57,045 bases of DNA from a virus: IMG/VR virus record IMGVR_UViG_3300020187_000040, positions 1 to 57,045 of that record. One strand, given 5' to 3'. The position numbers and the translations under genes were made by a program. A model generated the notes under the pieces. The model saw nothing but the letters and a program-made list of their open reading frames with translations, was not told the origin of the DNA and searched no databases. Below are positions 781 to 50,418 of the stretch, piece after piece; within the stretch, counting starts at the first letter, position 1; each line of letters begins with the position of its first letter.

Positions 781-3700
781 TCACTTCCCTCTGCTTATCA
801 ATACAGAACTAGGTCTTAACTTATAGTTTTTATTGTCTATATCTAAGAAGCCTAGGTTTTCGTTAAATACCACACCGTCTTCAGGGTTAGTAATATTTTC
901 TGACGCACAGTTTTCTAAAACCGCACTGCTAGTTGATATGCAGTTGGTTCTAGGATATTTACTATAAAAAATGCAATTCTTGAACACACCATTAATACCT
1001 TGAGTTAAGTAATTATGAGCTGATTGGCGATCATTGTGGTCAGCGAATATGGAGTTTTTTATATCAGTATAAGCAGTTTCACCGACATTGAATGAATAAG
1101 TTGCTACTCCTGCTGGAATTTCAAATATAGAACCTTTGGCTGTAACCGAAAGAGATCCAATATACTTATGGGATAAGACATGGCAAGAATCAAAAACATA
1201 GTGGCACTCTCCACCTAAAGTAAAATGGTCTACTGCTATAAGTTGTATCCCTTTAAGGCGAAGAGTTGGATTTTTCCCAGCAGAATTGATTCTCCACCCG
1301 TTATCTGTAAAAATAGCTTGATGGGTGTTTTCTGCTATCATGGTAATATTATTGCCCACATTATCATCTTGCAAAATGGCACTAGTCCATACATATTGGC
1401 CATCTTTAAAGACTATTTGATTGCTAGAGCTTTGTGCCGCAGCAAGAAAAGCTTCAGAGTATTCGTTCCAGTAAAATGGATTACCTTCAGTTCCCGCGCC
1501 AGCGCCAGTTCCTGATTGCACCCAAATTGTATCGGCTGGGTATTTACTTTTGAAAATTCCACCAATACATGGCGAGTCTGGCCGCAACCTAAAATCTTCA
1601 TTTTCTGTAGTTAAGTCAACAAATAATGGATCTGCTACGATACAACTGCCACTATCAACATTTGGTGTATGAATAAAATCTGCGGCACTATTGTAATATA
1701 TATTATCAGTCCAATTTGTGGCCCAAATTCCTGTTTGAGTCTGACCACCAGAGGCAATAACTTGATTTAATGCTGCTATATCTGTGTATACAATACTGTT
1801 TTTAAAATAAGAATTGGCATCCATGGTTTGACCAAAGAATGTATTATTCTCATATGTTGGCCTGCGATATCCAGATAAATTAAAAAATGCACAGCTTTCT
1901 ATTCTATACCTGATGATACCATAACTATGGCCAATCCACTGCATGTCACCACCTGGACTTTTTTGAAGAGGAATGTTGAAAATACAACCCTTTGCATCAA
2001 ACCATTCGGATGGGGATATAATCAATGCCCCACCAATATTAGCAGTTGATGTAGCAGAAAATATGCATCCCCTCAAAGTAAGGTTTCGAAAACCACCTAA
2101 AATACCCCTATTAACATAACTAGTTGTATTGTTAATATGTATGCCAATATTTATGAAATAAAAATCAGAGCCACTAATTGTTGCGTTTGTATCTGTGTTG
2201 GCAGGATTATTATAAAGCATTGGCCATGCATTAATGTTATCTAGACTTACAAGCCTTGTGGATTTTGCACTAGACCCTACAAATCGAATACCATTTGGAT
2301 AGCTGGACTCAAAAGCCATTCCATTCGGACCTTGTCCGCCATTCATTGGGTGGTCACCTGCTTTGAATAAAATATCACAAGAACCAGTATATGCCCTAGC
2401 ATCAATAGCGCTCTGGTAATTCGAAAATGGATTAGATTCTGTACCAAGTGTACCCATTGAAACAGTTATATTGCCCCTCATATTTTCGTGGCCAGGTACA
2501 GTGCATTGATAATAGTATGTATCTGGATATTTGGGCGAAAAAGTAGTTGTCCCGCTCGCTTCAGAGGCTACCTGAATCCCTTGGCTGTTGTAAATTGCAA
2601 GAGCGTGCCCACCAGTAGTGTTAGTGAATACCAAGGTGTCCCTGATGTTTGCATTGATTGACGGGTCTGTTCCTGTAGCGTCTCCGCTAAAAGTATAATT
2701 GCTACCATCCCCAGCATCAAGAGAGAAAGAATAAGATGCATTGATTTCTGTGTGCGCAGAATCTACCCATAAACCATCTGGGTATTTTTCGTTTAATGGA
2801 TTGACGGTTGTAATCCCTCCGATCAATGAGGAGGAAGGGCGAAGTTGGAAATCTCTAAATGAAGAACCTAATGGGTTAACGAAAGAAGGTTCAATATTTA
2901 TAAGATTACCTGTGTTATTGACAACCTGACCAGAGGCATCAAAAAATACATTATTTTCCCATGTTCCTTTGTAAAAGCCACTGCTCGAAGCAAGTGATGT
3001 CGAGCCTGCATGGCTTTTAATATAAAATATATTATTTTTAAAAACAGGATTCATTAAACCCTGATTAATTAAACTGCTAAGCAATGGTTGAGCTGTAGTT
3101 GATGTTAAAATAACCGTGTTGTTTAGCATTTGAATAGCTTTGTCTGTACTCGCTGAATTGGTAGCTTGCCCAAAAGCTGCATAAAACATACCGTAAGTAG
3201 GTAGGGTTTGTTTAATTAAACAATTACTAACTACAGAATTAGCGGGCGGCCACCAATAACCACCACCGATAGATAAAATACATCGATTATAATTAAAACC
3301 AACTCTACCTCCATCAGGGTAATTGCTATAACCACTAATCCCAGGACTTCTTACATCTAATCCAACGCATAAAATATTTGCTGGCTTAAAGGCCGATTGA
3401 CCAATTATTGCTTCATAATCATTCAGGGCCCTTAATGTAGGTCTTCCGTTTTGTGGATAAACCGTCGAACTAAAAGGAAGATAATCATATAAACCATCAG
3501 TAAGAATGACCTCATCACCATCCGTTAAACTATCCAGCAAAAAATTACTTTGAATTAAATCAGTCGCCTTATATGGGTCGTCTAAGGTTCCTGAAACCTC
3601 CCTCCAGTCAGTAGTATTTGTGTTTGGTGGAGAATTTACATCCCCATCATGATTTGTTAAAGCTTCGTATATTTTACCATTATACGAAACCCTCATGCCA

Positions 3701-5508: not shown

Positions 5509-8100
5509 TTAGTTACTATCAACAATATACCAAGTTCCATCATAGTATATATATAAATTAGCCGTATCAGTTCCGTATGCCACGGTAGCCTCCCCCGAAG
5601 GGTTAGTTGGTTCTGTTGCTAATATTTCTGCCTCAGTTGCTTGAAAGTTAATATTAAAAGGGCCCTGATCTATGTTTTCATAAATATACCATATACCTTC
5701 ATAATATACATATAGGTTCGAAGTATCTGATCCATATGCTATCACAACCTCACCCGAAGGATTGGTTGGTTCTGTTGATAGTATTTCTTGCTCTGTTGCA
5801 ACAAAAGATATATTAAAAACACAATCCATCCATTTAGCTGCTATTCGCGACCTATTAATACCGGCATCTATATCCCACAAACCATTACCGCTAACCCATG
5901 GAGCATGAACGTTTAATGACATATTGCTATGACCCCATAGGGATGCTCTTCCGCACGGACTAAAACCATCTAAATCTGGTAAATACTTAAAAGCTACAAA
6001 ACAAGATAATCCACTTAATTGCCTCTGTGTATTACCTCCGGCTAAAAATGGAGATCCCCCACTAACTGTCTGCATATAATCACTCTCTGGGGTCTCTGCA
6101 CCATCAAACCTAATTGCCGGCAGTCCGTGAAGCTCTGAATAAATTGGGCTATCTACTCCAGCTGGCACATAAAAGCTCGCGCCAGATGATGTTTTATCGG
6201 TCCATTCAATTACTTCTCCATTAGATTCAACTATTGAAGTTTCATTATACCACCCAACTAGGGGGCTACCTATATCCGATGGCCTCCAACCGATAACACC
6301 TGAAGATTTATACGGATGAGACTCGGGCAGGAATTGTTGCATGGACCATTTATGGGCCAGGTATCCTTCTATTTTTTGCCTGTTTGCATTGCTTACATTT
6401 TCATCAATTACAACAATCTCCCCGATCACAGACGACTGATTAAAAGCAACCTCAGCTATCTTCATTCTTGCATTAGTTCCAATAACTATATTTTTATCTC
6501 TATCCGTTTCCTCAACTAAAAGGTTTCCATTCTGCCACATTTGCTGTGTCGTGGTTGATTGATCGTAAGTCCAACCACCTATAAAATTAATAAGCCTATC
6601 ACTAACCTCATCATATATCGCTGTCACAATTACATTGCTAGCAGGCATGATAATTTTATTATCAACAATCTCTACTGGGTTACCTTGCAAGTCAACTGCA
6701 GTTATAGAGCTTAAGAAGAAATTGTTTTGCGGATACAATAAGAGTATTACCTCTTGCCCTTCTTTATATAGAGGCTCTGGATATGATGCTTCGGACCCAC
6801 CAGGACTGTCTACGAAAGTAATACTATATTCATAACCTGCATTTCTATTACTTCCCTCGATCTTATTATATTCAACATCGTATGCATACGATGATCTTGG
6901 CGATAACCCAACAACTCTACTAATTTGTTGCTGCTTTTTTACTGCCGGCAAATATGCCAATTCCGTTGACAGAGCTCTGTGCTCACTTGAGTATCTACTT
7001 TTTGAGCCCAATCCTATATGCCAGTTTATAACAGTATCTAATAATGTTGTAGAGAAATCTTTATAAGAAAATAATCCTAAATTTTTAACATCATCTGATG
7101 CACCAAAATAATAAAAACAATATAATATATTATCTTTTAATATTTTAGGATCCCTTGTTGTTAGTTCTACTGATTCATCCTCTATTGCATCTCCCCATAG
7201 ATTTCTTTTTAATTTGCCATACCAATTTTTATTTATATATTCTTCTAGGTGCTGATAAAAAACTTCGTCCCTATTTGATCCGTCTCTGAATATTGAGTCA
7301 GCATTTGCAGATCCATTAACATCAAATATGGAGTTCCACTCAGTTAGTGTGGTGTTTTTATCCACCAGCCCCCCATAAATTAGCCCGGGTTTTTCATCTA
7401 ACCTTATACTGCCGACTCCCAGTAAATCTTCCTCGAGATAGTTTCTTTTCAAGTTAAACTTAAATAAAGACCCCTCAAGCTTTGGGGAGAATATCTCGAG
7501 AGCCATTAATTCTTTTGAAAAAAGCAATAGAACATTAGCGTGTGTTTCTGACAGCGAAAACCTTTCTTTTAAATACCTGACAGCATAACTCCTTCTCCCT
7601 AATGACCCTTGCTGGTTTGTTTTAATCTCTAAGTGGGGGGAGCTCTTATTAGAATCTTCTATGCTTGTTAATTCTACAGGAAACCAATCTCCCTCTGCCG
7701 GCCAAGATATATTATAATAGTCGTCAAGTATCAAGAACTCTCCTTTATGATATTCATCTTCGCTTAGAAGGGTAACATCTTGAGTGATTGGCAGCTTATT
7801 TGTTACAGTACTTTCTTGAGACAACATTGATACATGCTCGCCAGGCACCCATGCAAGCCCATCAGGATATCCGACCATATCTAACTCTGTTGTACTTAAC
7901 GGCTTCGACTCGTTAGTAAAAGACCTATGCCTACTTAGCTCAAAAATATAATCAGACTTTGTTGTATACTGCAGTATGCCAGTACCTCCAATATTAAATA
8001 AATTAATTTCAGAGTTAGTCGCAGCATCCATAGCTATACTAAAAGATAAATAATCGTTTTGATTATTGCTTGAAGAAATATTTATTTCATTAAATTCCAT
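5509..8100 (-). CDS. Large modular tail-fibre protein (B-repeat plus LamG-like domains)
   Basis: 863 residues. The N-terminal 400 residues are unassigned. An InlB-type B-repeat lies near 428-500 (ITFVDSPGGSEASYPEP... ending IIMPASNVIVTAIYD). A LamG/concanavalin-like signature follows near 579-605 (GYLAHKW...LPESHPYK), then the start of a second LamG-like region (GWYNETSIVES...VIEWTDKTS). The C-terminus carries two tandem copies of a roughly 50-residue unit (ATE.EIL.TEPTNPSGE...YGTDT.NLY.YY.GTWY). The same LamG signature occurs in 16476-18398 and the same B-repeat in three other genes. A carbohydrate- or receptor-binding fibre is inferred. It starts 8 bases after the upstream stop. Confidence 0.7.
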   Translation of the reverse strand: MEFNEINISSSNNQNDYLSFSIAMDAATNSEINLFNIGGTGILQYTTKSDYIFELSRHRSFTNESKPLSTTELDMVGYPDGLAWVPGEHVSMLSQESTVTNKLPITQDVTLLSEDEYHKGEFLILDDYYNISWPAEGDWFPVELTSIEDSNKSSPHLEIKTNQQGSLGRRSYAVRYLKERFSLSETHANVLLLFSKELMALEIFSPKLEGSLFKFNLKRNYLEEDLLGVGSIRLDEKPGLIYGGLVDKNTTLTEWNSIFDVNGSANADSIFRDGSNRDEVFYQHLEEYINKNWYGKLKRNLWGDAIEDESVELTTRDPKILKDNILYCFYYFGASDDVKNLGLFSYKDFSTTLLDTVINWHIGLGSKSRYSSEHRALSTELAYLPAVKKQQQISRVVGLSPRSSYAYDVEYNKIEGSNRNAGYEYSITFVDSPGGSEASYPEPLYKEGQEVILLLYPQNNFFLSSITAVDLQGNPVEIVDNKIIMPASNVIVTAIYDEVSDRLINFIGGWTYDQSTTTQQMWQNGNLLVEETDRDKNIVIGTNARMKIAEVAFNQSSVIGEIVVIDENVSNANRQKIEGYLAHKWSMQQFLPESHPYKSSGVIGWRPSDIGSPLVGWYNETSIVESNGEVIEWTDKTSSGASFYVPAGVDSPIYSELHGLPAIRFDGAETPESDYMQTVSGGSPFLAGGNTQRQLSGLSCFVAFKYLPDLDGFSPCGRASLWGHSNMSLNVHAPWVSGNGLWDIDAGINRSRIAAKWMDCVFNISFVATEQEILSTEPTNPSGEVVIAYGSDTSNLYVYYEGIWYIYENIDQGPFNINFQATEAEILATEPTNPSGEATVAYGTDTANLYIYYDGTWYIVDSN

Positions 8101-8108
8101 CTTGTTTA

Positions 8109-9683
8109 TTATAATATCAGATTAGCTCCACCGCCAAAATCGTTAGTCATAGAAAGTATAAACGGATCTATGTGCATACCATGTATTGCAGGGCCGTGAA
8201 TCATAGCTATAGCTATACCCTGTTTCCAGAATCCTTCAAAAGTTGACGGGCTTCCACCAAAATGAGCAATAAGGGTTGCGTTATATAAAGTCCTCCAAGC
8301 TGCCAACTGTCCATCTAGCCAGGTTAATGTTTGGGTACCATCATTATTAAAATCACCATTATTTATTTTTATAAATAACTGAGAATATATAGCCTTATAT
8401 CCGCTCCCTATGGCATTAATATCAGGCTCTGGTTCAGGCTCTGGTTCAGGCTCCGGTTCAGGCTCTGGTTCAGGCTCCGGTTCTGGTTCAGGCTCTGGTT
8501 CAGGCTCTGGATTTGCGGGCTCTATGTCAATTGAATCACAAAAATCTGTAGTATCATAGTCCCCCTCGTCAGCAGCAAATATTGATATAATTGTTTCCTG
8601 GCTACTATTTATAAATACGGTTTGGTTTCTTGCATCCAAACTACCCTCTACATTATAAAATAACCCAGTAAAATCATTTCCATCTATAGTTAAAGTTGTA
8701 TTTTTCGAGCTGTCATATTCTACTATCATAGAATAACCTTGATCATCATAAGTATATATAAATTCCTCGTCCGACAGGGATCCGTTTATTAATTCGTTTA
8801 CATTATTTTTGCCCTGTATCATCTTGCGCATACCCCCAAGAGCACCAGACATTCCAATATGCCCATATAATTCAGCAATATTCTTCCCCCCGTTAGTTAT
8901 CACGTCAGAGTATGACAATATAGAAACATCTAGTTTTTGCATAAACTCCAAATCATCACCCCATCCATCTGTATTAAATTGGGCTGGTGGAGTTTTATTT
9001 ATACAAACATCATTCTCAATGTCTGGGTTAAAGTCACTCAAGTCTGCTGGTATGAAATTATCCCGATTCTCCATCCACTCCCTATCTCCAGGATCTTCGC
9101 AAAGAAAGCTTCCTGTCAGTGTAAAGTATGCATCGCAGTCATTTTCATCAGTAGAGCAATTTGATATGGGAAACCCCGGATATATGCTTACTCTTGCCCC
9201 GAATACATCTACTGGTAATTCTTGATTGTGTACATCTTGAATTATTCCAGCATTCCCGCTCTCTAATTCTTTTATTAATGGATGAAAAAATGTTGGAATC
9301 TTAAAGGAATCGGTCGGATTTAGAGTGATCGGCAACTCTTCTGTATTATCTGCAGTATACATAGAGCCTTGATTCCTGTATTTAGGGTACTCAAACAAGG
9401 AAAACCTAACAGGATCACTATTAACAAAACCGGTTATCTCTATTGGAAGAGTGCATGTATTTGTAATCCTTACAAATCTGCCAGAATCCACTATTGTTCT
9501 TTTAAAATTACAATCAAATTTAGTTGTAGTGTCAGAGCAACTATTGTCTGTGTATATCTTTAATTCGCTCTCCGTAAAAACAAAGGCGTCGTCTTTTTCT
9601 CTTATTATTGGTCCGCATGCAGAAAAATTACTAGTACCTTCTTCGGACAGGCAAATTCCAGAATCTTGAGTTATAAATGCCAT
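8109..9683 (-). CDS. Virion structural protein with Pro-Glu linker
   Basis: 524 residues from the ATG at 9683 (MAFITQDSGICLS). A longer reading frame opens at 9752, but its first 23 residues fall inside the end of the upstream gene and look like that gene read in another frame. The start chosen is 1 base after the upstream TAA. Residues about 1-390 are rich in cysteine and aspartate without a recognised fold. Residues about 392-422 are a run of about 15 PE dipeptides, a stiff extended linker. The last 100 residues include a WLDGQLAAWRTLYNATL helix and a Gly/His-rich tail. Tail-tip location is inferred from its place between the tip protein and fibres. Confidence 0.65.
   Translation of the reverse strand: MAFITQDSGICLSEEGTSNFSACGPIIREKDDAFVFTESELKIYTDNSCSDTTTKFDCNFKRTIVDSGRFVRITNTCTLPIEITGFVNSDPVRFSLFEYPKYRNQGSMYTADNTEELPITLNPTDSFKIPTFFHPLIKELESGNAGIIQDVHNQELPVDVFGARVSIYPGFPISNCSTDENDCDAYFTLTGSFLCEDPGDREWMENRDNFIPADLSDFNPDIENDVCINKTPPAQFNTDGWGDDLEFMQKLDVSILSYSDVITNGGKNIAELYGHIGMSGALGGMRKMIQGKNNVNELINGSLSDEEFIYTYDDQGYSMIVEYDSSKNTTLTIDGNDFTGLFYNVEGSLDARNQTVFINSSQETIISIFAADEGDYDTTDFCDSIDIEPANPEPEPEPEPEPEPEPEPEPEPEPEPEPEPDINAIGSGYKAIYSQLFIKINNGDFNNDGTQTLTWLDGQLAAWRTLYNATLIAHFGGSPSTFEGFWKQGIAIAMIHGPAIHGMHIDPFILSMTNDFGGGANLIL
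8422..8511 (-). repeat. Pro-Glu hexanucleotide repeat
   Basis: About fifteen six-base units coding Pro-Glu inside gene 8109-9683, with only synonymous variation (GGCTCT, GGTTCA, GGCTCC on the plus strand). The product is a rigid spacer. Confidence 0.85.
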
Positions 9684-9684
9684 A

Positions 9685-12600
9685 TTAATTACTAGCGCTT
9701 CGAGATTGAAACCTCTTGGGCCCCCTCTGTGTATAGCTTCCCGATCTATCATCTATGGGTATTTTTGTAAGCTTGAATGAATACCCACCCGCATTTTCTC
9801 TACCGTCTCGCCCATTCGCGTAAGCACCGCCATAATATTGCCACGCATACAAAGAGCCGGTGCTTATTGCATCACTATAACAGTTACTATTCCCTAGGCC
9901 ATAAACCGGTATACTTTTAATATTCGCCATCGCATCCCATATGGGGCAATCCATTTCGCCATATAGTTGTTTTATGCTACTAGGCACAGCGCCAGGGCTC
10001 GGAGAGAGATTGGCCCTAGGATTATAAAATATAAAGGGACCCTTAATTCCAGAAAACTGATTGACGCATCCATAGTTTGTGTGATTATAAACATCAACCC
10101 GCCATCCGGGAGGAACAATCATTGTGCCAAAATCAACTCCGGACCCGACTCTATGAACCAACCCAAAACCTCCAAGTCCATCCATAAACGATGTAACTGA
10201 AGGTATTCCTATGGTATTGTTTCCTAATTTTTGAGAATATGGAGATGGCACTTCATGGACATCATCATCTTTTAAAATTACATAAGAAGACTTCACGGAT
10301 ACATTTCCGTAACCTGGATATTTATAATTAATTCCGGGCGGGTGAGCTGATTGATCGCCGCGCGCATCATCTATCCCAAACGGTATTCCAGCCCCAAACG
10401 TCCCCCTGCTATCAGGTATTTGCTCTAAGCTGCACCCAGAGCCATCAGGGCCTCCTACCCAGTTTTTTCCCTGAGGAAAGCTTCCGCTACTCCAGCCTAC
10501 CGTGAATACTTGAACCGCATGAATCCTTCCGTCTTCATCAATTGGTAAATATTCACTAATTCCATCGCAGTATAACTTAGGCGGCTCCGGCTCAAGCTCT
10601 ACAGGCTCCGGCTCGGTTACATCATCTAATTTTATAGGGAATTGTATTTCGCCATAACAATCAGATTTCTTTATACTTCCATCGTCTGTGTTAAATACTA
10701 ATTGTATTTTTTCATTTATGTTGGCTAACCTGTTTACTCTTATCCCAAAAAATAAATCTAAGGACTGCCCCGTTTTCAATTTAGGCAGGTGCGAATAGTC
10801 TCCTTGAAAGTTATTTTCTTCGGTTACATTCCCTATGTTATAATCAACTACCTGAAGATCTGTGCTGCCAGTAAATACCCTAACTGGCATTCCCTTTGAT
10901 GCCACACCTACATTATTTACCCCGCTAGATGGTTTATTTTTCCAGCCTCCGTCAATTAAAACCAATCCGCAGTCTCTATATATTTCATATTTTGTATTAA
11001 ATGATTTCCACAGAATATTAGAATCTGCTGTTGTTTCATCTGTTAATGCTCTTTTATTATTCGGGTCTCCATAATATTGGCCCCCATTTCCATTCGATGA
11101 GTTACCCTCTATTTCTTCGGAATTTAAATATTCTAATTTCTGAAAGCTCCCACTTTTCGGTATTCCACCCTTTAGTCTTTCGGTCGTCCATTTCAGTGGT
11201 TCAGCTTCTGACTCAATATTAATTAATGTATTTTTTATTTCAACATCTCTTGGCCCACAATTATGCACAGTAACTGAGAAATAATTTTCATAACCCGACC
11301 CTTCACTAATTACCTCTACAGCTTTTATTAAATTTAACAGCCTCTTTAATTCACCTCCCTGGTTACCCGCACTGCTTATTTCAAAATAAAACTCCTTACC
11401 CTTGGTTTCCTCCTCGTAATCGTAAACATATTGCGGTAATTTGTTTGACATTTTTCCTGGGACACCTATTCCGACTGACATAAAAATAGTATTCAACCTT
11501 TCTTCATACCAATCTGGATTATCTACTCCATTGTCTGGGTTATGGTATAAAGATTTTCCTTCGTCGGATTCCGTCCATTTAAATTCATCCAAGAATCCCT
11601 TGATAGTCCCACCGTATCGGCTAATGTGTCCATATTTATCTAGCACCTCATCTCTTGGTCTACGCTTAGCTAGTTCTCTATCGGCCCTCATCGCTCTGCA
11701 CATCTCTAGTGCCTTGGGACTCCAAGTGTGAGGTATTTTCCCTGAAGTATCATTATCAAAACTTGCATCACCAGCTATGACTCCATCGCTCAGCATAATC
11801 ATTATTCTGTCGGTCACATACTCGGCCCTTGGGCTATTATACATTTGAGCTAACCCCTTAGCTATGTATTTCGCAAAATACTCGCCTTCATAAAACTGTC
11901 CGAAAGATATGGGTATGTTGCCTGCTTTTTTATACGCATTAACTTTATCAAAACCATCCTTGCTTGATGAATCTATAATAGTTCTGTTTTTGGGTCCAAC
12001 ACCCATTACCATTAACCCTATATTCACTCGCTGTTTATCTATCTTTATTTTAAATCTTTCAAAATTATCAACATTAAAACCTTTTGATTTTAAATCTTTA
12101 TTGATATCGTCTACTGCTGCATCAATCAATGAGTTTCCATCTTCATTAACAGCCCATGGCGGCAAATTATCATCTCCACTTATATCTGTAAACTTGATAC
12201 TTGGGGCATTTATTTGACCTCCGTAACTATTTGTACCCGGCATTACATAATCATCATGAGCAACAATCATTTTTCGTATTGCATCTATTGACGCATTAAA
12301 TTTTGATATATTAAAGTTTCCAGAAGGCCCAGACCCACTAATGTTGTAGTAGGTCATGCTGCCCGTAGTATCAACTATAAATATAATATCAACAGCTTTT
12401 CTTTTAAGCTGTACCCCAACTTCTCCCCCTTGTAATCTCTTAAATCCGCCACAGGTTGCAGTCTGCAAGACAGAAGAAAATGTACATAATTGATGGGGGG
12501 TAATTGGGTCTTCTAAATATGCCGAATAGCATGGGCGGCTCTCATTTTGCCCGATACCAAATACTGAAAATAAATCTTCTTCTTTGGATGTTGCAGACTC

Positions 12601-15273
12601 TATGAAGGTGGCAGTTATTTTGTGGTTATTCTTATAAGATACCTCATGGTCCCAACTAGGACAAAAGAATATTGACATTCTTGGTTTCGATAATGTGGTT
12701 TCATGAGATTCGTCGGTTAGATAGGGCCTAGGCATAGAAAACCTAAACTTCTTGCAACCTAAATGACTCTCTAAAAATTGCAATATTTCTAACGCCTCTT
12801 CATCATCTCTTTGATCGAATACAACAGTAAACTTTGATAAATTTTGATTGATTTGTTTTTTATATTTTTTGTTATAGTATTTTACAAAACTAGACTGAAC
12901 AGTATCAGGGGAATTATTGAGTTCAAATGATAAGCTTGGCTTTTGCTCAAACGATCTAACCTCTAACCATGGAAACTTTGGTATCCTGTCTGGATTTTCC
13001 AAGTATATACTGTGCCTGCCTCTTACCGCTGGAACTAGTATATAAAAATCATCTGTAGCATTTAAAGTAAAATCAGAAAGCGGAGTAACAATAATTTCCT
13101 TAGAATCTTTTGTGATCTCGGAGTCAATCTGAATCTTTCGATAATTTTTTAACATTACCACTCTTTTCTTGGGCACTCCAGTAACAGGGTCAAGAGTTTC
13201 TGGCGGTATAATATCTAACCCAGGAGGAAACAAAACCTTGCTAGTCAAGCAATCTTCTGGGCACCTCTCTAGGTGTTTAATATTAATTGTTTGCGGAGAT
13301 GCATCAGAGCCTGATTCTAATATCGGACCGAATATATAATTTCTGTCATCTATTTTATGAACTATTTTAGTTAACCCAACAGAAAAGATTGAGTCTTCTT
13401 CTGGGATTTCTATATAAACACAGTCCCCTAACTCAATAGATTGATCTTGATTAAAAATTATCTGCGCCTCTGTATCCGAGACTTTAATTATATCTGAAGC
13501 CCCATCTAGTGTCTCTGTTGGGTCTTCTTCATCTCCAGACTCCAGTGAGAATGTATTTAACTTTAATTGCTCTCCTTTTGTAAATTTTGTTTCTGCATCA
13601 ATAAATACAGGTACCAGCACATCAAGTCTGTAATTGTAACCAGCATGACTATCAACACTCTTTAAACTACTTTCAGTATTACATACAAACTTAGCACTAA
13701 CAACATTATTGTTTCTATATAAAATTGAGTGTGAAAAATCAGTACAAGTAAAATGTAAATCTTTTCTATATGGGTGGGTATAAACAAACCTAAAAGAAGA
13801 TACATCTCCAGACAATAATCGGTCTCCCCTGTAATCTATTCCAAATATAGACTCGTAAGCAAAATGCTTTTCCTGCAAGAAGTGCATGATCGCCTTAGCC
13901 TCTTTATCTGTTCTATTGTTGAAACTTACATCTATTTCTAGGGGCAAAGAATTTATAGCTAAATTATTTACATAATCAGAACCTTCTCCAAGATCAAGAT
14001 TTTCATTGGTTGCTACAAAATTACTTTTCGATCCATAAGAGGGCCTCCATTCAAAGTCTTGAGTCCAGTATCCAGTATCGTGCCACAGCTCCGACCCAGG
14101 ATGGTTCTGTATTGATGAATCATGATCTTGGGCGCAATAAAAAAACGGGCTTGTACTTGTCGCGCTAATTCTATCAAACTCAAATCCGCCAGATTTTAAT
14201 CCATATATAAATACGAACACTTGGCCGAGCCTCGCACCTTCAGGTATATCCTTTGATCTAATGTCTAAATATGCAGTATAATATTCATCGTGGCTTAATT
14301 CGGCCTGGGCTAAAAGCCTATAAGTATTCCTTCTGTCACTAGGATTTAATTTATTAAAATTTTCATCATAAAACTGTATCGCCACCCCAACACCTATAGA
14401 GTTTATTGGGTCGACAGCGCCATTAGTTTCTGTTAAAAATGTTTTATAATTATCTATTAATTCAGAATCTTTTGTGGCTTTTTTTATCATCGCCTTGGTT
14501 GAGTAGTCCCACCTTGGATTAACTGGGAAGTAGCCCCCGTAAGACAGCTCTCTTTCCTCTGATTCAGTATCTATAGACATATCGGGTACAGTACCCCCTT
14601 TTGCTGAAATAGAAGTGATTATTCCTCGACCAAAAACATCATCATCTTCTGAGTAAACAACAAGCCTTGTCGACGTTATTGTTTGGCCTGAGCTAATTTG
14701 TGTTATCCTAGCCCTTATATCGTCATAAGGTTGATCAAATTGAGTTGACACATATGGATTAAAAGGCTGACTCGCCTTAACCCCAAGTCTTTGCGGGTCA
14801 GGATAAAACCCTCCGTCTGGCTCAAAATATTGATGTGTTAAATCTGTCCCAGTATATGACAACAATTGATTAGATGCATCTACTAATACCTCTCCATCAG
14901 AATTAATATATTCCAATAATAAATTATTATAATTACTTGAATTGATTTCTTGTTTTAGCCATTCATATTCATTATCTATTTCTAATATTGATGTATATTT
15001 AGATGATTCCGTACTATGATAGAAGAGCATGTAGTCTTCTGGATTGCTAGTCTTCTGAGATAGATTTGTATACTTTAATTCGTTTGGTTGCCATGCCCCC
15101 CAGCCTTCTCCTGGCGCTTCATTCATTACGGATTTCCATGTACTACCATCGGTTTTTATTGGGTCTTGAGGCGGTACATAAAAGTCATCTATATTAGTCA
15201 AGTTGTCTATTTTGACGATATCATTTTTTGAGTAACTAACCCCACGCTTCCAGCTTTGTGCAGAAATATCCAT
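9685..15273 (-). CDS. Giant tail-tip protein with two minor-tail modules and a von Willebrand A domain
   Basis: 1862 residues. Residues 94-220 are a module shared with gene 50418-51626 (EIN..NY.NL...S.G.V, later ITQISS.QT.TS...VYS). Residues about 405-531 and 775-898 are two copies of a module resembling phage minor tail proteins that bind the tape measure end (F.C..W.H...Y.NNH.ITA.F). Residues about 958-1320 form a von Willebrand A domain: DTTGSM supplies the metal-site DxTxS-type motif, MLSDG the later Asp, and SVGIGV a central strand. A proline-glutamate linker lies near 1555-1570. Position directly after the tube-like genes and before fibres supports a tail-tip or central-fibre role; adhesion through the metal site is inferred. 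Confidence 0.75.
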   Translation of the reverse strand: MDISAQSWKRGVSYSKNDIVKIDNLTNIDDFYVPPQDPIKTDGSTWKSVMNEAPGEGWGAWQPNELKYTNLSQKTSNPEDYMLFYHSTESSKYTSILEIDNEYEWLKQEINSSNYNNLLLEYINSDGEVLVDASNQLLSYTGTDLTHQYFEPDGGFYPDPQRLGVKASQPFNPYVSTQFDQPYDDIRARITQISSGQTITSTRLVVYSEDDDVFGRGIITSISAKGGTVPDMSIDTESEERELSYGGYFPVNPRWDYSTKAMIKKATKDSELIDNYKTFLTETNGAVDPINSIGVGVAIQFYDENFNKLNPSDRRNTYRLLAQAELSHDEYYTAYLDIRSKDIPEGARLGQVFVFIYGLKSGGFEFDRISATSTSPFFYCAQDHDSSIQNHPGSELWHDTGYWTQDFEWRPSYGSKSNFVATNENLDLGEGSDYVNNLAINSLPLEIDVSFNNRTDKEAKAIMHFLQEKHFAYESIFGIDYRGDRLLSGDVSSFRFVYTHPYRKDLHFTCTDFSHSILYRNNNVVSAKFVCNTESSLKSVDSHAGYNYRLDVLVPVFIDAETKFTKGEQLKLNTFSLESGDEEDPTETLDGASDIIKVSDTEAQIIFNQDQSIELGDCVYIEIPEEDSIFSVGLTKIVHKIDDRNYIFGPILESGSDASPQTINIKHLERCPEDCLTSKVLFPPGLDIIPPETLDPVTGVPKKRVVMLKNYRKIQIDSEITKDSKEIIVTPLSDFTLNATDDFYILVPAVRGRHSIYLENPDRIPKFPWLEVRSFEQKPSLSFELNNSPDTVQSSFVKYYNKKYKKQINQNLSKFTVVFDQRDDEEALEILQFLESHLGCKKFRFSMPRPYLTDESHETTLSKPRMSIFFCPSWDHEVSYKNNHKITATFIESATSKEEDLFSVFGIGQNESRPCYSAYLEDPITPHQLCTFSSVLQTATCGGFKRLQGGEVGVQLKRKAVDIIFIVDTTGSMTYYNISGSGPSGNFNISKFNASIDAIRKMIVAHDDYVMPGTNSYGGQINAPSIKFTDISGDDNLPPWAVNEDGNSLIDAAVDDINKDLKSKGFNVDNFERFKIKIDKQRVNIGLMVMGVGPKNRTIIDSSSKDGFDKVNAYKKAGNIPISFGQFYEGEYFAKYIAKGLAQMYNSPRAEYVTDRIMIMLSDGVIAGDASFDNDTSGKIPHTWSPKALEMCRAMRADRELAKRRPRDEVLDKYGHISRYGGTIKGFLDEFKWTESDEGKSLYHNPDNGVDNPDWYEERLNTIFMSVGIGVPGKMSNKLPQYVYDYEEETKGKEFYFEISSAGNQGGELKRLLNLIKAVEVISEGSGYENYFSVTVHNCGPRDVEIKNTLINIESEAEPLKWTTERLKGGIPKSGSFQKLEYLNSEEIEGNSSNGNGGQYYGDPNNKRALTDETTADSNILWKSFNTKYEIYRDCGLVLIDGGWKNKPSSGVNNVGVASKGMPVRVFTGSTDLQVVDYNIGNVTEENNFQGDYSHLPKLKTGQSLDLFFGIRVNRLANINEKIQLVFNTDDGSIKKSDCYGEIQFPIKLDDVTEPEPVELEPEPPKLYCDGISEYLPIDEDGRIHAVQVFTVGWSSGSFPQGKNWVGGPDGSGCSLEQIPDSRGTFGAGIPFGIDDARGDQSAHPPGINYKYPGYGNVSVKSSYVILKDDDVHEVPSPYSQKLGNNTIGIPSVTSFMDGLGGFGLVHRVGSGVDFGTMIVPPGWRVDVYNHTNYGCVNQFSGIKGPFIFYNPRANLSPSPGAVPSSIKQLYGEMDCPIWDAMANIKSIPVYGLGNSNCYSDAISTGSLYAWQYYGGAYANGRDGRENAGGYSFKLTKIPIDDRSGSYTQRGPKRFQSRSASN

Positions 15274-16475: not shown

Positions 16476-18398
16476 TTATACTACTGGACGTTTTTCTTTG
16501 TAGGTGTGATCTTCTGGCAATAAATCTACAAAACCCCACTTGTGAGCTAAATACCCTTGAGTTCTGAATATTTCACTATCAGGAATAAAGCCACGAATAA
16601 CCACATTCTCCGCTATGAATCCATTGATAGTAGCTTCCATTTCATTCATAACTGAACCAATGGAAAAAGCTTCTACTTGATTGAGTCCTAAAGAACCTTC
16701 AATCATTACAGATCTTCCATTTATATCTAAATATGAATTATCTCCATCAATTAAAACTGTTATTATAAATTCTTCTACTCTAATAGTGTCTGGGCTAGAC
16801 GAAGCACTCTGATAGCTTTCTTTTATTCCTCCGTCAACAATATCATCTCCTTTGCTTTTTATTGACCCAGTTTCTTCTAGTATTCCATCCGGCCTTCTGG
16901 TTTGAGTCGATACTTTTATATTGTTTGTATCTAATCTCTCTATCAGAAGCCTATCAAATTCTTGCTGGAAATCAACACCCAGTGTATCCACCAACACAGC
17001 CCGCTTATCCATATCCTTAAACTGACCAGCTATAAAGACATAATAAGGTTCTCCCCTGTTTATATTAATATCTGTAGTAGTTAAAATACTTTTACCATAA
17101 AAATTAATAGCAGGTTTTTTATTAAATATATATTGAGTGAACCTTGGATCAAAACCCCCGCTTGAAGATTCTAATACGGCATCATTGGGACCCTTGCTCC
17201 TCCATCCCTTTACAGCATACCCATCTAGATTTAGATAGTTTTTATCTAAAGCATCATTCCATAAGGTTGGTCTCAAAAACGAAGGGCTCCACATTGCTTC
17301 GGTAAAATTGCTATTTGTAAAATCTTTAGAGTGAGGTAGTTTTCCCCTTTTATTATAATAAGATTTATACTGAAGATTTACAGTCAATCTTCCATCTACA
17401 GAAGATGAAACAGATTCTCCAATAAGCCTAGCTTGCTCTATAGTATAATATTGAATTGGATCCCCAAAGCAGTCATTAATCTTTATAGCAATATCTTCTA
17501 CAGTGGGTGTGAACATATACTTTCTAAGGCTTTGATATTTGTATTCATCTACTTCAAGGGTAAACGAAGTGTCTGTAATGATTGGCCAATTAACATCGAC
17601 CTGAGCAGCATATGCTGACCCAACAACATATATTGGCTCTATGCCTACATTAATTGAATGGTTAAATGCCACAACTCTATCTGTCTCTGAGCCTGCACAT
17701 TTTATGCTTATCGACCCTTGGTCGGGAACTCTTATTTCTGGGAAAGGATTGTCGCCCTTAGCATTATACTCTGGTTTGTTATAATATGAATCTTCCAGTA
17801 TATAAGCAAATCCATTTTCATCGAGTACGGAAAATTGATCGTTTTCTTTGTCAACGAAATTCGGGGAACCACCTATGTCCCCAAACACCCTTATACTTGT
17901 CGATGTTGACGGAACCTGGCCTATTGCACATGACACCGTATGGCTAGTAATGTAACCACTATGGAACCCAAAATACTCATGGCCATGGTGCAAGCTTCCA
18001 GTAAAGGGAGTGTCGCCCAAAAATTGTATAAAAAAATCTTCACTTACTAGTGTTGAATTTATTGAGAAATTGCCTTCTAGTGGGGCATTTAATACCGCCA
18101 TTGATTTGGGATTAGGACACCTCCTAGGTTTGTCTTCAGGGCAACTAAGAACATCTTCTTGCAATAAATCAAAAAAACCATGCTCTTGAATCACGAAGCC
18201 GTAGCAACTATCTTCTGGTTTATTTTCAATTTCTATTTTAGGTTCTGGTGGATAATAATCTTCTCCAACTAACCCCCAGCCTAATACATTAATTGGCTTT
18301 TCTTGTATAGAGTATGAGCCCTCAACACTCTGGATGCCAGACATTTGAGTTCCATTAATAAAAAATTTCTGCTCGTGAGCTAAGAATGCTTGCTTCAT
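16476..18398 (-). CDS. Tail-tube-like protein with C-terminal LamG-like domain
   Basis: 640 residues. The N-terminal half resembles the tail tube proteins of this phage; near 145-177 it has HSGYITSHTVSCAIGQVPST, matching GNGYITDYSVDVSVGSIPTA in 29791-31302. The C-terminal half, about 355-640, is a LamG/concanavalin-like domain ending GYLAHKW...LPEDHTYK, the same ending as in 5509-8100. Its ATG overlaps the tape measure stop in an ATGA. A distal tube ring that displays a carbohydrate-binding domain would fit; this is inference. Confidence 0.65.
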   Translation of the reverse strand: MKQAFLAHEQKFFINGTQMSGIQSVEGSYSIQEKPINVLGWGLVGEDYYPPEPKIEIENKPEDSCYGFVIQEHGFFDLLQEDVLSCPEDKPRRCPNPKSMAVLNAPLEGNFSINSTLVSEDFFIQFLGDTPFTGSLHHGHEYFGFHSGYITSHTVSCAIGQVPSTSTSIRVFGDIGGSPNFVDKENDQFSVLDENGFAYILEDSYYNKPEYNAKGDNPFPEIRVPDQGSISIKCAGSETDRVVAFNHSINVGIEPIYVVGSAYAAQVDVNWPIITDTSFTLEVDEYKYQSLRKYMFTPTVEDIAIKINDCFGDPIQYYTIEQARLIGESVSSSVDGRLTVNLQYKSYYNKRGKLPHSKDFTNSNFTEAMWSPSFLRPTLWNDALDKNYLNLDGYAVKGWRSKGPNDAVLESSSGGFDPRFTQYIFNKKPAINFYGKSILTTTDININRGEPYYVFIAGQFKDMDKRAVLVDTLGVDFQQEFDRLLIERLDTNNIKVSTQTRRPDGILEETGSIKSKGDDIVDGGIKESYQSASSSPDTIRVEEFIITVLIDGDNSYLDINGRSVMIEGSLGLNQVEAFSIGSVMNEMEATINGFIAENVVIRGFIPDSEIFRTQGYLAHKWGFVDLLPEDHTYKEKRPVV

Positions 18399-21300
18399 CC
18401 GCTAAGCTCTCCACCTATTCGCTTCTCCTCTCGAATAACTTCGAGTACCTTTGTCTTGATCTTCATGGCAAGTTGTTGTTCTTGCTCGTATGTTCCTTGT
18501 GTCCCTTCGGTGGAAACCTTTTCATTTCCGGATTTGTCAATTGTTACATTGACATTTATATTGTTTGTTACTTCTGTATTTTGATTTGTCGCAGCAGTTT
18601 CTGTTTGGTTCGCTTGCGTTCCTTCTAGTAGAGAGCTGATCCTGTTCTCTACTACAGGGGCAGGTTTTGCTCCTGATGTTGTCTGTGGGGTAGAAATGGA
18701 AGAGCTAGGAGAGCTTGCTGTACCCACTATGCCTCCCTTATAGTACCCTTTCTCTGCCTTACGGAATCCGTCTGGATTTTGCATTGCAAACCTCATCATG
18801 TTTGGATTGTCGCGAAGCAACTTATCTGTAGAGCTTCTTCTTATGATAAAATCCCCTTCGCTTAGTCCAACTGGGCCCACATTGTCCACACCTCCCGGTC
18901 CGTCAATGATAGGAATTGATCCAGTGCGATTCATTTTATTTAAATTGTCATAGCCTATACGCCTTGCAATTGGTGCTGGTATAAAAGATTCTCCTGCAGT
19001 CAACATGGCTGGAATTTCTCCACCGGAAAATACTTCTAATGGTTTGCCCCTGTCTATCCCTGTGCCGGGCCTGGTGGGATCTGACCACATTTCCATTTTA
19101 CCCATTTGAGTGCTATTTATCTTGTTTTGCAAATCTTGAGCGGTAGCGCCTCTAAAATTAGGATTATTTGCTGCTGTCTTTTTCTGAGCAATATGCCAGC
19201 TTCCATACTTCTTTCCACCCCTGAGTCTAAACTCGAAATTACTCATTTCATTGCCTTTTGCATTGGATGCAAAATCGCTAGAATACATTTTGCCATTATA
19301 CTCTAGTGGATTCCCAGACTCTATACTTTTTGCTACATCTTTATAATTAACATCGTGCAATCCAGCTTTTCTTGCGGCTTTAAATGCTTCAGAGTGTTTC
19401 CCTAATCCACTGTGGCCAAGAGCTACATTTTTTCCTTTTTCTATAAGCGAATTGATCGGTCCTTTGGCTACTTCAAGGGCCTGCGAGACCGCAAAAGATG
19501 CCACGGTTCCTACAATCGATCCAATCCTAGACATTCTTTCACTAACTTTTCTATTTTTCTGAGCCACACGATATGAAGCTACATCCAATAAATGCCCTCG
19601 ATACTCTTCCATAACTGGATCTTTAGCTAGAAGCTTCCCGCTTGATCTAGGGTCTCCTCTTGAAATTGAAAGTGTGGAATCCAAGTTCAAATTCTTAAAC
19701 TTGTTCATGTCAAATTCGGGCGGCTTTTCTTTATCTAAATCCTTGTTTTGCATTTTCTTGGCGACATACCTCGAAGCTTCCTGCATCGCAAGTGCCTGAA
19801 CTAGTCCACTCGCTCCAGCTTTAACTCTTTGTGCAGTCCCGCCCTCTTCAAAGTGTTGCAACATGCCGCCATCTTTTAATGCTTTTGCAGCCTTTTTAGG
19901 TACTACAAATTCGCCCGCAGTAAGCATGGCCGGAACTTTATCGACCCCGGGTTCGCCCTCAACAAATCCACCCTTTGCAAATTTTTGTATTTTACCGCCG
20001 AAGAAATGTTCAGGCATGTAACCATGCCTTGGTCCGTTTGGCACCGGTATAGCCTCAAGGGCATATGTTAATTTTTGTCCAAATTGTTCGACAGTGCCAA
20101 CTACAGAATTAAGACTCCGAGACATTCCGGTTGCAGCCTTGTCTATATTTTCATATCCAAAATCTCGCACATTAGACTCGTACTGAGGAGTGTTATTCAT
20201 TTTTGCTTGAATCTGAGCAATCGCAGGTTCCTGTGTATTCTGATATCCATGGTATGTGGTTGGGACATCAGGCACTTCTTGGTTTTGTCTGTTAACTTGA
20301 TTATTAGCATCCTCTGCAGCTTGCCTATCTTTGGCGGCTTTCACCATGGCTGCAGTTCTTTCTGCGGCTTCTTTTCCTAGTTTCACAGCTTGTTCTTCGG
20401 TTGCTGCTGATTGAATTTCAGCGGCTCTTTTTGTGTTTGGATCTGAGAGCGAGACATTATTAGGGTTCGCTCCTGTTTTTGTCACACCAATATCTGCCCT
20501 GCTCGCAGCTTGCTCTCCAACTATTCTTTGCTGATCCTCTACAGACATTCTTAGTGCATCAAGCGAGCCAATCAGCTGAGTATTTGCATCAATTAAATGA
20601 TTATTGGATCCAGCTATTTTCTCGGCCTCAGAAAGTGCATTCTCCCCAGTAAATGCAAATGTTAAATTTTTAATAATCTGATCGATGTTGTGTTCCATCA
20701 TACGGTCAAGCAAAACATCCGCCAATCCTAAACCAAAGTCAGACCATGCCTCTTTGGCACTCTTTGCTCCACTTCCGATATCTTTAAAGAGTTGCTTCAT
20801 GCCGCTTCGGGTTTGATCTAGTCCTATGTCAACTAAATCAGCCCCAAGATTTTTGGCGGCCACATCCATCTCTGCAATTTTCGTACGCATTCTATCAAAT
20901 GCACGCGATCCTTTTTGTAATTGTTTGTTTGTTTCTTCTAGCGACTGAGAGAAGGCCAGGGCATCTTCTGGGCTGCCAGTTATCGTTGCCCTCATGGCGG
21001 CTTCTCTTGTTCCTCTAATTCCAGTGGCCCTTTCTGTTGCAATATCCGAACCAACACTCAATCTTAATTCTTGCTCGCTTACCGCCGCTTTTCTTATCGC
21101 ATTCTCTAACCCGATTAATTTATTAGAAGATTCTTGCAATTCATTAGCTTGCTGTAGTAATCTTCCTTGTTCACCCATTGCACTTAATACTAATGCTTTT
21201 TCGGCATTAATTAAAGCAGACGACTGAGCAGAAGTAATTTCTTCTTGAATTTGTAAATCTGCTTGTTTTTTTAGCTCTTCAGATCCTGCTAACAATTTTA

Positions 21301-24300
21301 ATTTAGTAAGATTATTTCTGGCGGTTGTTTCTAGGGTAGTGGTCTCTTCTTTTATTTGTGACCCAATTAATGCTTCACGAGTTATATTGTAGCTTAAATA
21401 TTCATTTCGGAAAGCTGCATCTTTGGCGGCTGCACCGGCAGAAATAACTTCGGTTTGCATTTTAGCTCGTTGAATAATCTTAAACTCTTCAGTATCCCGA
21501 AGTATATTTTCTTGAACTTGTAATTGCTTGAGAGATAATAGTGCAGCTTCTGCATCTGTACGGTTTTTATTTATTTGTGTTTCGTAGGCTTTGTCATCAA
21601 GGACGCCGCTCTCCATGATCTTTTTAAGGCTATCTTTTCTAAAATGATTAATGACAGCCAGAGTGTCAACTTCGCCCTGTAAGTTTTTAACCATGGATTC
21701 TGCGGGGCTCTTTTGCTCAGCAAAAATCATAGCCAGTTCCCTAGCTCCCTTAACTGTTTTTTGTTTTATTAAATTTAAAGCCTTTTCGCTTTCTAATCCA
21801 GCCCTTGCTACTTTAGCAGTTGTTTCAGCTGTTTGCTTAGATCTTCTAAGACTATCACTAGTTTTCTTGGCTACCTCTATGTCTTCTGCCTTCATAGTAG
21901 TAAGCTCCATATGATGTTTTGCCAAAAGCACAGACATTGCTAAAATTGAATTTTGATTATCTCCATATTTTGCGGTAAGCTTATTTATAATTTCTTGATT
22001 ATCTGTATGATCTTTAACCTCTTTCCCTAATTCCTTAAAGAATGTATTTAGATCTTGAATTTGGCCTTTATCTAATCCGCCCAATGAATCGCTAACTTCG
22101 GCAATCATCTGAGGATTTAATCCTTTTTGAATTGCATTTTTGAGTTCAGCAACGCCAGCTTGAGCATCTTTAGCATCGCTATTAAATCGAGAGCTTAAAG
22201 CGGTAATGTTTACATATTTTTTACGAATAGCCTCAAGGCTACTTAATGCATCTTGATTAGCTTTTAATTTATCTGATTCAAGTTTTTCAGTTATTGCTGC
22301 ACCATCTAGGGCTGCTTTATTCTGTATAGCGGCAGAGCGACTAATCATTTCATATTCACTCTGTAAATCAATCAAGCTACTATTAATCTTTCTTTTAGAC
22401 TGAGTAATAATATTATCTAATTTATTTTGATGAATTATTTCTTCTCTTTGTTTTTTATAGTTAGCTACTATTTTAGTATATTCAGACAGTAGTCCAGCCT
22501 TAGCTTGTTGGGCTTTTTTGGTATCCTCGCGCTCTCTTTCTGATACTTTTATTTGTTCATTTAATGCATTAATGAAAAACTTTTTCTTTTCTGCAGTTTC
22601 TAAATCTAAAGACTCTAGTCCGGAAATTCCTTGAATATTTCCTGCTGCTAGGTTTTTCTTGATCTGTCCTTTTTTCTCAGGACCAAGGTCTACCGCTATT
22701 TCTGCAATTTTATTCGCTAAAAAGTTGAGTTCTTCTTTTAAGTCATCGCTAGGAGCGCGTCCTTCAAACATTCCGAATTCGTCTCCTGTTTTCTTACCGA
22801 AATCTTTAATGGCTGTAGCGAAAGCCATTTGAACCGCTTCTTGTTTTGCTATTTTCTCGAGCACACGGACCAATGCTTCTGTGCCTTTAACTTCTCCAGA
22901 CTTGGCCTTGTTAACTTCATTTATTAAATCCTTATTCTTGAGATTGGCCGTGTCGACTTGTGCAAGTTTAGACTGTAAACTAGTCTGCTGCTTGATTTCT
23001 TTTATTCTTAGACTAATTAGTTCCTTTTCTTGCTTTAATGTTCTGCCCGCCCCAATAATTTCGAGTTTAGACATTTTGTCCCTAGTCGAGAAAAGACCGT
23101 TTGCCGCATCTAGAGCAGACTGTGTTTTCTCTGCAGATTCAGCAAGTTTCTCTAATTTTTCCGCAGCTCTATCGGAATTAGATTTGAAGTGTTCAAATAT
23201 ATCTACATCAAAGTATTTTAAAGTTTCATTTAATATAGTGAATCCGGTAATAAGTTGGCCTACTACAGGAGCAAACCTCATCAAGCCTTTACCGAATTTC
23301 ATTACAGAGTTGATCGCCTTGCCTATTCCAGCGCCTTTTCCTCGACCCGCCCCACCAGCACCCGCTCCACCAGTAATCTTTCCTAACATGCCACCTATTC
23401 CCACTTGATCCTTTGGCGCTATATCTGCCATGTCTGTGAGTTGATCAGCAAATTCTTTAGTGGCAATCATGGTAGACATTACAGTACTAACGCCCATACC
23501 AAGTTCAGCTATCTTTTTTGTTGTCTCTCCCCCCGTTTCTGCAAACTCCTGCAAAAATCCATTTGCCATACTAATACTTGATTGAAGGTAAAACAGTTTT
23601 TGCAGCCCCTCCATATTTGAATGGGTATGCTTATCTACCTCTTCCTTATTATCCTTTAAGGAATTAGTGCTCGATTCTACTTGATTTTCAAAATCTTTAA
23701 ACTTCTGACCCGCCGGGCCTCCAGCCACACCACCGACTACAAAGTTAGGCATAAACCCTCCAGCTGCACCATGACTCTTAGGATCTAGCCCCATGCTTTT
23801 TGCCCGCCTGATTCCTTGCCCAACCCCAGCAGGCTCATCTCTCGTATTAGTAACAGCAAGACCCATTGGATTTCCGGGGCCTTTTAATTGATTACTTTGT
23901 TCAATTTTTATATTGCTTGCTGGAATTCCGGCGGCCTTTTCTCTCTCTACCGCTTCTGCTAATGGGTCTGCAAAGTTAGGAACAAAACCACCAGATAATA
24001 TTCTATAATCTTCTGGATATTTTTTTAAATCCTGAAGAGTTTTTCTGTCGTAAAATTTAGACAAAAATTGAAGCATAGTCTGTCCGGGCTTGAACTGAGT
24101 CTCACCTCCTGCAAACTCCTTTAAATATTCTTGGTGCATCAAGTTTTTTGACTTGATTGTTTTCTTCTTAAAAGGAGTGGTATTATCAAAAGGAATTATA
24201 TCTGCAAAGTTTGGAATGAGGCCGCTTGATGCATCACTAAAGTAACCTAAACTTCTGCCGCTGTTATACTTTTCAACCTTGTCTTTAAGGTTTTTAATAA

Positions 24301-34527: not shown

Positions 34528-35514
34528 GTGGATTCCCGCAATTACAGAAAAATATTTAAAGAAATCTCTGAGGGTTTTTCTTCCTATTTTATAGGGGAAG
34601 AAAGAAGATACATAAAGCATCAGTCATTTCATGATGTTGTAGATTTTGACGACATCTATGACATGCACCTAGAGAGAGCTCAAAAAAAAGGCCTACCTAC
34701 TGAGGCGGAGATCTTTGAAGAGCTTAAAAAAGATGAAGTGTGGACCGAAAAAGATGATGCTGAAATCGAAAAGCAATCTTTTTATGTTGATAGCTTGATT
34801 AAGAATAAAAAGAATATATATCTTAAAAGTGCCCTTAATCAAATAAATAAACAGATCGCTGAAGCTGAAGAGAAATTATCCCGCATTCAGTCGAAAAAAC
34901 AAGATCTCGTATCTAATAGTGCCGACAAGTATGCATTGAGTCGAGCGAATGACTTCTATATAGTCAATAGCTTTTACAAGGATAAGGGATTACAAGAAAA
35001 ACTATACTCAGAAAAGGAATTTGAATATGCCTCCACGACGGAAGTCTCTAACCTTGTAGTGACATATAATGAGTTTCATAAGACTTTCTCTGATAACAAT
35101 ATAAAGCATTTAGCAATCCAAGATTTTTATAAATCCTATTACAGTTTCATAGAAAACTTGACTGATTTTTTTGGGAAGCCCGTGATCGAATTAACTAACT
35201 TCCAGTTAAATTTAACACTTTATACAAAGATATTTAAAAATATATTTGAGCAGTATAGCGAAGACATGCCTGAAAGGATTAAAAATGACCCAGACGGCTT
35301 ATTGGATTTTGCAAACTCATCGGAAAGTAGAGAGAAAATTAAGCAGGAAATATCTAAAGATTCTGGCGCATCTACTATTGTTGGGGCAACAAAAGAAGAC
35401 ATGGATGAATTAGGGCTATCTCAACCGAAGCAGGGGAGAACCCTAGAGGATTTAGCTAAAGAAAAAGGAGGTTCTCTGTCAATGAAAGATTTAATGAACC
35501 TTAGTGGGGCTTAG
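34528..35514 (+). CDS. Conserved phage assembly protein, same frame as upstream gene
   Basis: 328 residues from GTG at 34528, 3 bases after the UGA of the preceding gene and in the same frame; there is no good ribosome site. Sequence patterns such as GLPTEAEIFEELKK.EVWTEKDD, NDFYIVNSFYKD and DFFGKPVIELTNFQLNL resemble a family I associate with large marine tailed phages, whose function is unclear; an assembly role is likely. Its TAG stop shares three bases with the TAA of the convergent gene 35511-36611. It is either a coupled separate protein or the product of UGA readthrough. Confidence 0.6.
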   Translation: MDSRNYRKIFKEISEGFSSYFIGEERRYIKHQSFHDVVDFDDIYDMHLERAQKKGLPTEAEIFEELKKDEVWTEKDDAEIEKQSFYVDSLIKNKKNIYLKSALNQINKQIAEAEEKLSRIQSKKQDLVSNSADKYALSRANDFYIVNSFYKDKGLQEKLYSEKEFEYASTTEVSNLVVTYNEFHKTFSDNNIKHLAIQDFYKSYYSFIENLTDFFGKPVIELTNFQLNLTLYTKIFKNIFEQYSEDMPERIKNDPDGLLDFANSSESREKIKQEISKDSGASTIVGATKEDMDELGLSQPKQGRTLEDLAKEKGGSLSMKDLMNLSGA

Positions 35515-49916: not shown

Positions 49917-50418
49917 AGAGTTTGCCAGATTTTCCGCAGAACTTAGCGAGACTTTTGATTTGAGCAGCGGTCTTGATACCGAGTCCCCAGGGGTGTCTTC
50001 CGCTAATTTTCATGGGCCAAAGGGTTCTAGTACGGATATTACCAATTCTTTTGCTAGTTTGAATGCGATTGCATCCAATAATACTAGGTATACTATTATT
50101 GATATCCCAGGGGCAATAGCAACGCCTGTAACTTCTGGCTCTAAAATTATCGCCCATGGAGTAGTAGGACTAGGTCCGTCAGGTGATACCTTAGTAAATG
50201 CTACAGTAAGCAATAGATGGAAGAAGGGCTCCGCTCAAAGCGTAATGTTTGTGGACATTACCGTGCCTTCTTCTGCTAATGCAACTGTATTAGCTACAGC
50301 CGAGAATAGCGTGGGGCTCATATCTACAGTTTCAGTCAGAAATTTAGGAAGCAACAAGTATCGCTTTAACACAGACTCGGGCCAGAAAAAGATTTACTTC
50401 GCATTTATTAAAGGATAA
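49909..50418 (+). CDS. Putative virion structural protein
   Basis: 169 residues, Ser/Thr/Asn-rich and beta-rich, with no cysteine and no membrane segment. The region from about 85 (GVVGLGPSGDTLVNATVSNRW) to 155 alternates beta-strand patterns typical of fibre tips or small decoration proteins. It overlaps the upstream gene by 8 bases and the downstream gene by one (TAATG), so the three form one operon. No family identified. Confidence 0.6.
   Translation: MGREFARFSAELSETFDLSSGLDTESPGVSSANFHGPKGSSTDITNSFASLNAIASNNTRYTIIDIPGAIATPVTSGSKIIAHGVVGLGPSGDTLVNATVSNRWKKGSAQSVMFVDITVPSSANATVLATAENSVGLISTVSVRNLGSNKYRFNTDSGQKKIYFAFIKG

Follow-up and report, generated by a model that had tools for sequence, protein, structure and literature searches.

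The von Willebrand A (vWA) fold serves for metal-assisted gripping elsewhere in biology and is adhesive in integrins, complement and bacterial pili, and the ring protein of the phage tail tip is usually considered purely structural. The locus analyzed here, part of a 57,045-nucleotide stretch of viral DNA (hereafter, the window), raises the question of what a domain of the former kind would do in a protein of the latter kind. An earlier note made from the sequence alone had placed a vWA domain at 11700-12400, inside a tail-tip protein, and had proposed metal-dependent binding to a protein or polymer of the host surface, noting that such domains undergo shape changes.

Architecture of the tail-tip protein

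The gene in question (9685..15273, minus strand), an open reading frame with a match to PF05939, encodes a protein of 1,862 amino acids that comprises, in this order, an N-terminal region, two gpM-like modules, the vWA domain, a segment that we denote C-beta, a proline-rich linker and a C-terminal region. The second gpM-like module (residues 765-905; 12559..12981, minus strand) is recognized directly: Pfam detects PF05939 at residues 775-892 (E 6.9e-11; 42.9 bits against a cut-off of 39), PHROG 14 (minor tail protein) is also matched, and the profile of the module matches that of the lambda tail tip protein M (PDB 8iyk; E 1.8e-4). The first module (residues ~396-535; 13669..14088, minus strand), which yields no Pfam detection, is a diverged second copy identified by its profile-profile match to module 2 (97.6%, E 4.5e-12). 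Thus, the minor-tail modules next to the vWA domain are as the earlier note described them. The interval that it gave for the domain lies within a wider one (residues ~957-1330; 11284..12405, minus strand), and the proline linker that it placed after the domain (EPEPVELEPEPP, residues 1554-1565; 10579..10614, minus strand) exists but is separated from it by C-beta (residues 1331-1550; 10624..11283, minus strand), a conserved segment of ~220 amino acids with a fold without assignment.

To place this protein in an evolutionary context, relatives were gathered from viral contigs. The gpM part is 92-98% identical to that of the relative L001, and C-beta accompanies the vWA domain in all fused orthologues as well as in the separate vWA genes of L085 and L086. 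Indeed, in L085, L086 and L087, the vWA domain and C-beta form a gene of their own that adjoins the gpM gene, so that the gpM-vWA fusion appears to be one state of a two-part system; the gpM-tandem protein of these three relatives has a different domain of ~250 amino acids at its C-terminal end. No report of a gpM-vWA fusion was found in the literature searched (the bioRxiv collection and most subscription papers being outside its scope), and no cultured or isolated phage relative of the tail-tip protein was found. A close relative of the tail locus, L051 (CAJQLD010000089.1), comes from a short contig that had been assigned to a Flavobacteriaceae MAG; this is a weak hint of the host and could be a binning error.

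In the relatives (L002 and L027), the tape measure gene comes first and is followed by two tube-like genes, the vWA tail-tip protein, two further genes, and homologues of L, K and J, which were named by reading the sequences of the relatives and lie outside the window record. The gpM ring of lambda, a hexamer, connects the tail tube with the tip (PMC10721106). The modules described here are homologous to lambda gpM (PF05939) by profile and are likewise encoded after the tape measure and, in the relatives, before the L/K/J homologues; lambda gpM, however, is a single domain of 109 amino acids, whereas here two tandem copies carry a vWA domain of 370 amino acids and more. The two genes that follow in the window are the next tail gene (8109..9752, minus strand; 85% identical to L001), a homologue of which is swapped together with the vWA domain in L027/L015, and a second gene (5509..8100, minus strand; 83% identical to L001) that occupies the position of the third gene of the exchanged cassette.

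Several other features of the tail locus and its surroundings were observed. Residues 30-217 of the tail-tip protein (14623-15186) share 36% identity over 207 amino acids with the product of a gene at 50418-51626 (plus strand) and are mostly missing from L001, and accordingly look like a mobile module. Linkers rich in Glu and Pro are present in two adjoining tail genes, at 10579-10614 and in the gene at 8109-9752 (minus strand), where the linker is very long (EPEPEP...). The proteins encoded at 5509-8100 and 16476-18398 (both minus strand) have a short segment in common (45% identity over 40 amino acids), and both match PHROG 10356, a virion structural protein. The gene at 18395-28264 (minus strand) encodes a tape-measure-like protein of 3,289 amino acids with a repeated motif like SGGFVPNF, and that at 35511-36611 (minus strand) contains a long in-frame run of PSGID repeats.

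Identification of the vWA domain and its metal site

The window copy of the domain does not match any Pfam family, even at an E-value of 10, being too divergent, and searches of Pfam, NCBIfam and PDB sequences with this domain directly gave nothing usable, so that the identification required orthologues. Among these, 11 of 13 domains match PF00092 (best E 1.4e-5), with L005 scoring above the cut-off (25.8 vs 23.8 bits), and the more distant orthologue L088 exceeds the cut-off for VWA_2 (36.6 vs 27 bits). Furthermore, in an hhalign comparison, the profile of 21 phage domains matches vWA proteins from Flavobacteriaceae genomes that, from reading their sequences, we take to be of the BatA/BatB type (94.7% probability, E 5.6e-8), in an alignment that brings motifs 1 and 3 into register; these bacterial proteins differ from the phage domain in being stand-alone proteins of ~340 amino acids with canonical DxSxS...GGT...TDG motifs, without tail modules.

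The AF2 model built from 17 sequences has a pTM of 0.73 and a mean pLDDT of 65, that is, moderate confidence, which drops furthest within some of the inserts and loops; an earlier model from only 3 sequences (pLDDT 40) was set aside. The significant PDB matches of this model in Foldseek are exclusively vWA-containing entries (best E 2.8e-4). The best of these solved structures, namely complement factors B and C2, the pilus adhesin SpaC and Toxoplasma MIC2, are only ~10% identical to the phage domain and superpose with part of the chain (TM 0.25-0.38 by query); a fold search against BFVD gave weak matches only. The Rossmann-like fold of the vWA type that the earlier note expected from structure prediction was thus obtained, at moderate confidence. 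Taken together, the Pfam matches of the orthologues, the hhalign alignment and the AF2/Foldseek comparison settle the overall fold: judged by combined sequence and model evidence, residues ~957-1330 are a vWA domain. That the motifs are a coincidence is hardly credible given this evidence, and the silence of Pfam on the window protein itself is all that speaks for it.

The three motifs on which the original identification was based, DTTGSM (residues 968-973; 12355..12372), MLSDG (residues 1160-1164; 11782-11796) and SVGIGV (residues 1266-1271; 11461-11478; all minus strand), are indeed present in this order. Motif 1 contributes D968, T970 and S972, and motif 3, LSDG (11782..11793, minus strand), contributes D1163, an Asp present in 29 of 29 copies; all four of these metal-site residues are retained in the window copy. 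The canonical Thr of motif 2, in contrast, is missing: the usual G-x-T is replaced by EGEYF (E1129-F1133; 11875..11889, minus strand), which hhalign places opposite GGTAI of the BatA/B-type domain, give or take about 2 residues, and GGGT is found only in L088. E1131 probably stands in for the usual threonine, as far as can be judged from this alignment. Across the relatives, the motif 2 position is occupied by E, D, K, N or T, with the residue matching uncertain by 1-2 positions, and the notion that E1131 is conserved in all copies with an intact metal site was rejected once more distant relatives were added.

The D-x-[ST]-x-S signature of motif 1 is kept in 14 of the 21 representatives (defined at 90% identity) and is broken in the other 7, namely L027 (KKGAS), L054 (DGDPI), L065 (DANPS), L072 and L079 (both DGSAA), L081 (DSNGS) and L084 (EAGEG); metal binding is therefore not essential to the family. 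In the phage represented by the window, a divalent metal is probably held by D968, T970, S972 and D1163 together with an acidic residue. The proposed metal dependence of binding therefore stays a hypothesis: motif 1 is preserved together with the Asp that partners it, but motif 2 has no Thr and a third of the representatives (7/21) have a broken motif 1.

Cassette exchange and loop variation

Over 751 aligned residues, the identity between the gpM parts of L027 and L015 is 100% (to two decimals), whereas their vWA domains are only 37% identical. The contigs G009 (L015) and G007 (L027) share 99.5% identity over 5.8 kb that ends 27 nucleotides before the vWA domain, then differ across a single cassette of 4.8 kb that includes the vWA domain and the next two genes (56% and 48% identity), and downstream are again 99.3% identical for 8.2 kb, with L, K and the 1,805-residue J being 99.3-100% identical proteins, J over its full length. 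The same breakpoint is seen in L054, L072 and L081, in which identity also resumes at nearly the same place, and this recurrence argues against a single assembly chimera. Sharp-boundary exchange of modules, as in phage receptor-binding proteins, is thus present at the vWA edge. Given that motif 1 is intact in L015 and broken in L027 and that the two tails are almost identical, this natural swap suggests that the tail can be assembled without bound metal, a parallel to PilB (PMC8179133), although the neighboring genes changed as well. Between the window and L001, the identity is 69% in the vWA domain and 85% and 83% in the next two genes, compared to 97% in the upstream tail genes. Variation is not confined to the cassette: J of L002 and L017 is 81% identical across its N-terminal 834 amino acids, so that J may also set specificity.

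Within the protein, variation is concentrated around the metal site. An unbiased scan covered residues 240-1550 of six close pairs in windows of 16 residues. Variability peaks in window 1168-1183, followed by 1112-1127 and 1120-1135, and all three adjoin motifs 2 and 3. They fall within or overlap two hypervariable segments, the stretch before motif 2 (residues 1112-1130; 11884..11940, minus strand) and the loop after motif 3 (residues 1165-1190; 11704..11781, minus strand); between the window and L001, the identity is 0.23 in residues 1096-1130 and 0.31 in the 1165-1190 loop. Across the six pairs, the three loop segments beside the metal-site motifs, namely those that follow motifs 1 and 3 and the one that precedes motif 2, contain 30% differences compared to 9% in the remainder of the vWA domain. 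The Fisher p values lie between 5.7e-10 and 0.022 for five of the pairs, and the remaining pair gives 0.063; these segments were picked after viewing the alignment, and the unbiased scan therefore counts more.

Of the four upstream regions, three have a synonymous divergence of 0.43-0.48 between the window and L001, and gpM module 2 reaches 0.71; the value for the vWA domain, 0.74, is also elevated, which points to recombination of diverged alleles. With dN/dS below 1 overall, recombination and relaxed constraint on the loops look like a better account of the variation than strong positive selection. A diversity-generating retroelement was considered as the source of the loop variation and rejected, with no reverse transcriptase (PF00078) found in 8 records, some of them incomplete.

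Possible functions of the vWA domain

The interpretation that we favor, and consider reasonably probable, is that the vWA domain serves as a ligand-binding head that sits on the tail-tip ring and can be exchanged; metal would assist it in this phage, though not in every relative. The carrier would be a ring-forming tail-tip protein in a group of large uncultured lambda-type phages, anchored within the ring by its two tandem gpM folds; because the lambda ring consists of six gpM subunits, three copies of the two-module protein could form a lambda-like ring. The vWA domain and C-beta would be displayed outward, and the loops around the metal site would grip a ligand on the host surface, probably with bound metal in this phage and in a metal-independent manner in the relatives with broken sites. 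Related phages swap the vWA domain and vary it fastest around the metal site, which makes it a good candidate for the host-gripping part, and an exchange that leaves the remainder of the tail untouched, the focused loop variation and the location at the tail tip fit such a recognition head. Host-surface binding as originally proposed is therefore compatible with location, exchange and hypervariability; counting against it are the missing Thr of motif 2, the broken motif 1 of some relatives, the moderate model confidence, the dN/dS value, the variation in J, and the two further genes of the swapped cassette, which might carry the binding function.

Two known systems are similar in arrangement. 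In Streptococcus sanguinis PilB, a vWA domain grafted on a pilin, the metal site is needed for adhesion and not for assembly (PMC8179133). PilB likewise presents a vWA head on a small structural unit at the end of a filament and provides a model of adhesion through the metal site; PilB is a type IV pilin, a different scaffold, with a canonical metal site, whereas the phage copy is devoid of the motif 2 Thr. In extracellular contractile injection systems, which are phage-tail-derived machines, vWA domains co-occur with tail-fibre domains in the eBAP4 network, with a proposed role in target binding (PMC12923769); there, the vWA domains are associated with the tail fibres of a contractile system, whereas here the domain is on the ring protein of a siphovirus-type tail tip.

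The presence of two additional genes in the cassette is the starting point of the principal alternative, which we regard as possible but on balance improbable: the vWA domain would be an internal docking platform, with an upper face that binds the proteins encoded by the two following genes, one of them meeting the host. The exchange of the three genes as a single block, their common divergence in excess of the upstream tail genes (window vs L001) and the frequent involvement of vWA domains in protein-protein contacts all fit this possibility; however, the metal-site loops differ even where C-beta is 97-99% identical (L002/L017 and L012/L015), which would be odd for a co-adapted internal interface.

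A stronger version of the recognition-head interpretation appears unlikely to us, namely that the vWA domain is the main host-recognition head and acts like an integrin I domain, with ligand binding at the metal site triggering a shape change that is signaled through the gpM ring, so that metal-gated attachment would be coupled to tail opening. A shape change, which the earlier note mentioned as a property of such domains, is suggested by analogy only.

Still more doubtful is a structural or decorative vWA domain that has no specific ligand and in which the metal site stabilizes the fold and decays neutrally. Such decay could account for the broken motif 1 in a third of the representatives and for the four changes of the intact/broken label that are required on the tree of the gpM part, but not readily for the universal retention of D1163, the concentration of the loop variability next to the metal site, or the repeated exchange with its start exactly at the boundary of the vWA domain.

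Finally, the vWA proteins described in phages in the literature consulted are CobT-, MoxR- or Ter-like (PMC7824862, PMC8651126, PMC7911831) or an undefined N4 core gene, and a vWA domain of a MoxR-type AAA co-chaperone or of the cobaltochelatase/Ter type was accordingly considered. This is very improbable: the present domain is fused to gpM modules, the window contains no MoxR AAA domain (PF07726), three larger relatives have only sub-cut-off AAA matches far from the tail locus, and the co-chaperone identity was rejected for lack of a linked AAA gene.

Among the contigs analyzed here are natural pairs that differ in the vWA cassette while their tails are nearly identical, and one of them combines an intact metal-site motif with a broken one, so that the roles of the vWA domain and of the metal are directly testable. 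If the ligand-binding head interpretation is right, an adhesive vWA fold would join the receptor-binding parts of siphovirus-type tails, and would do so on the ring protein.
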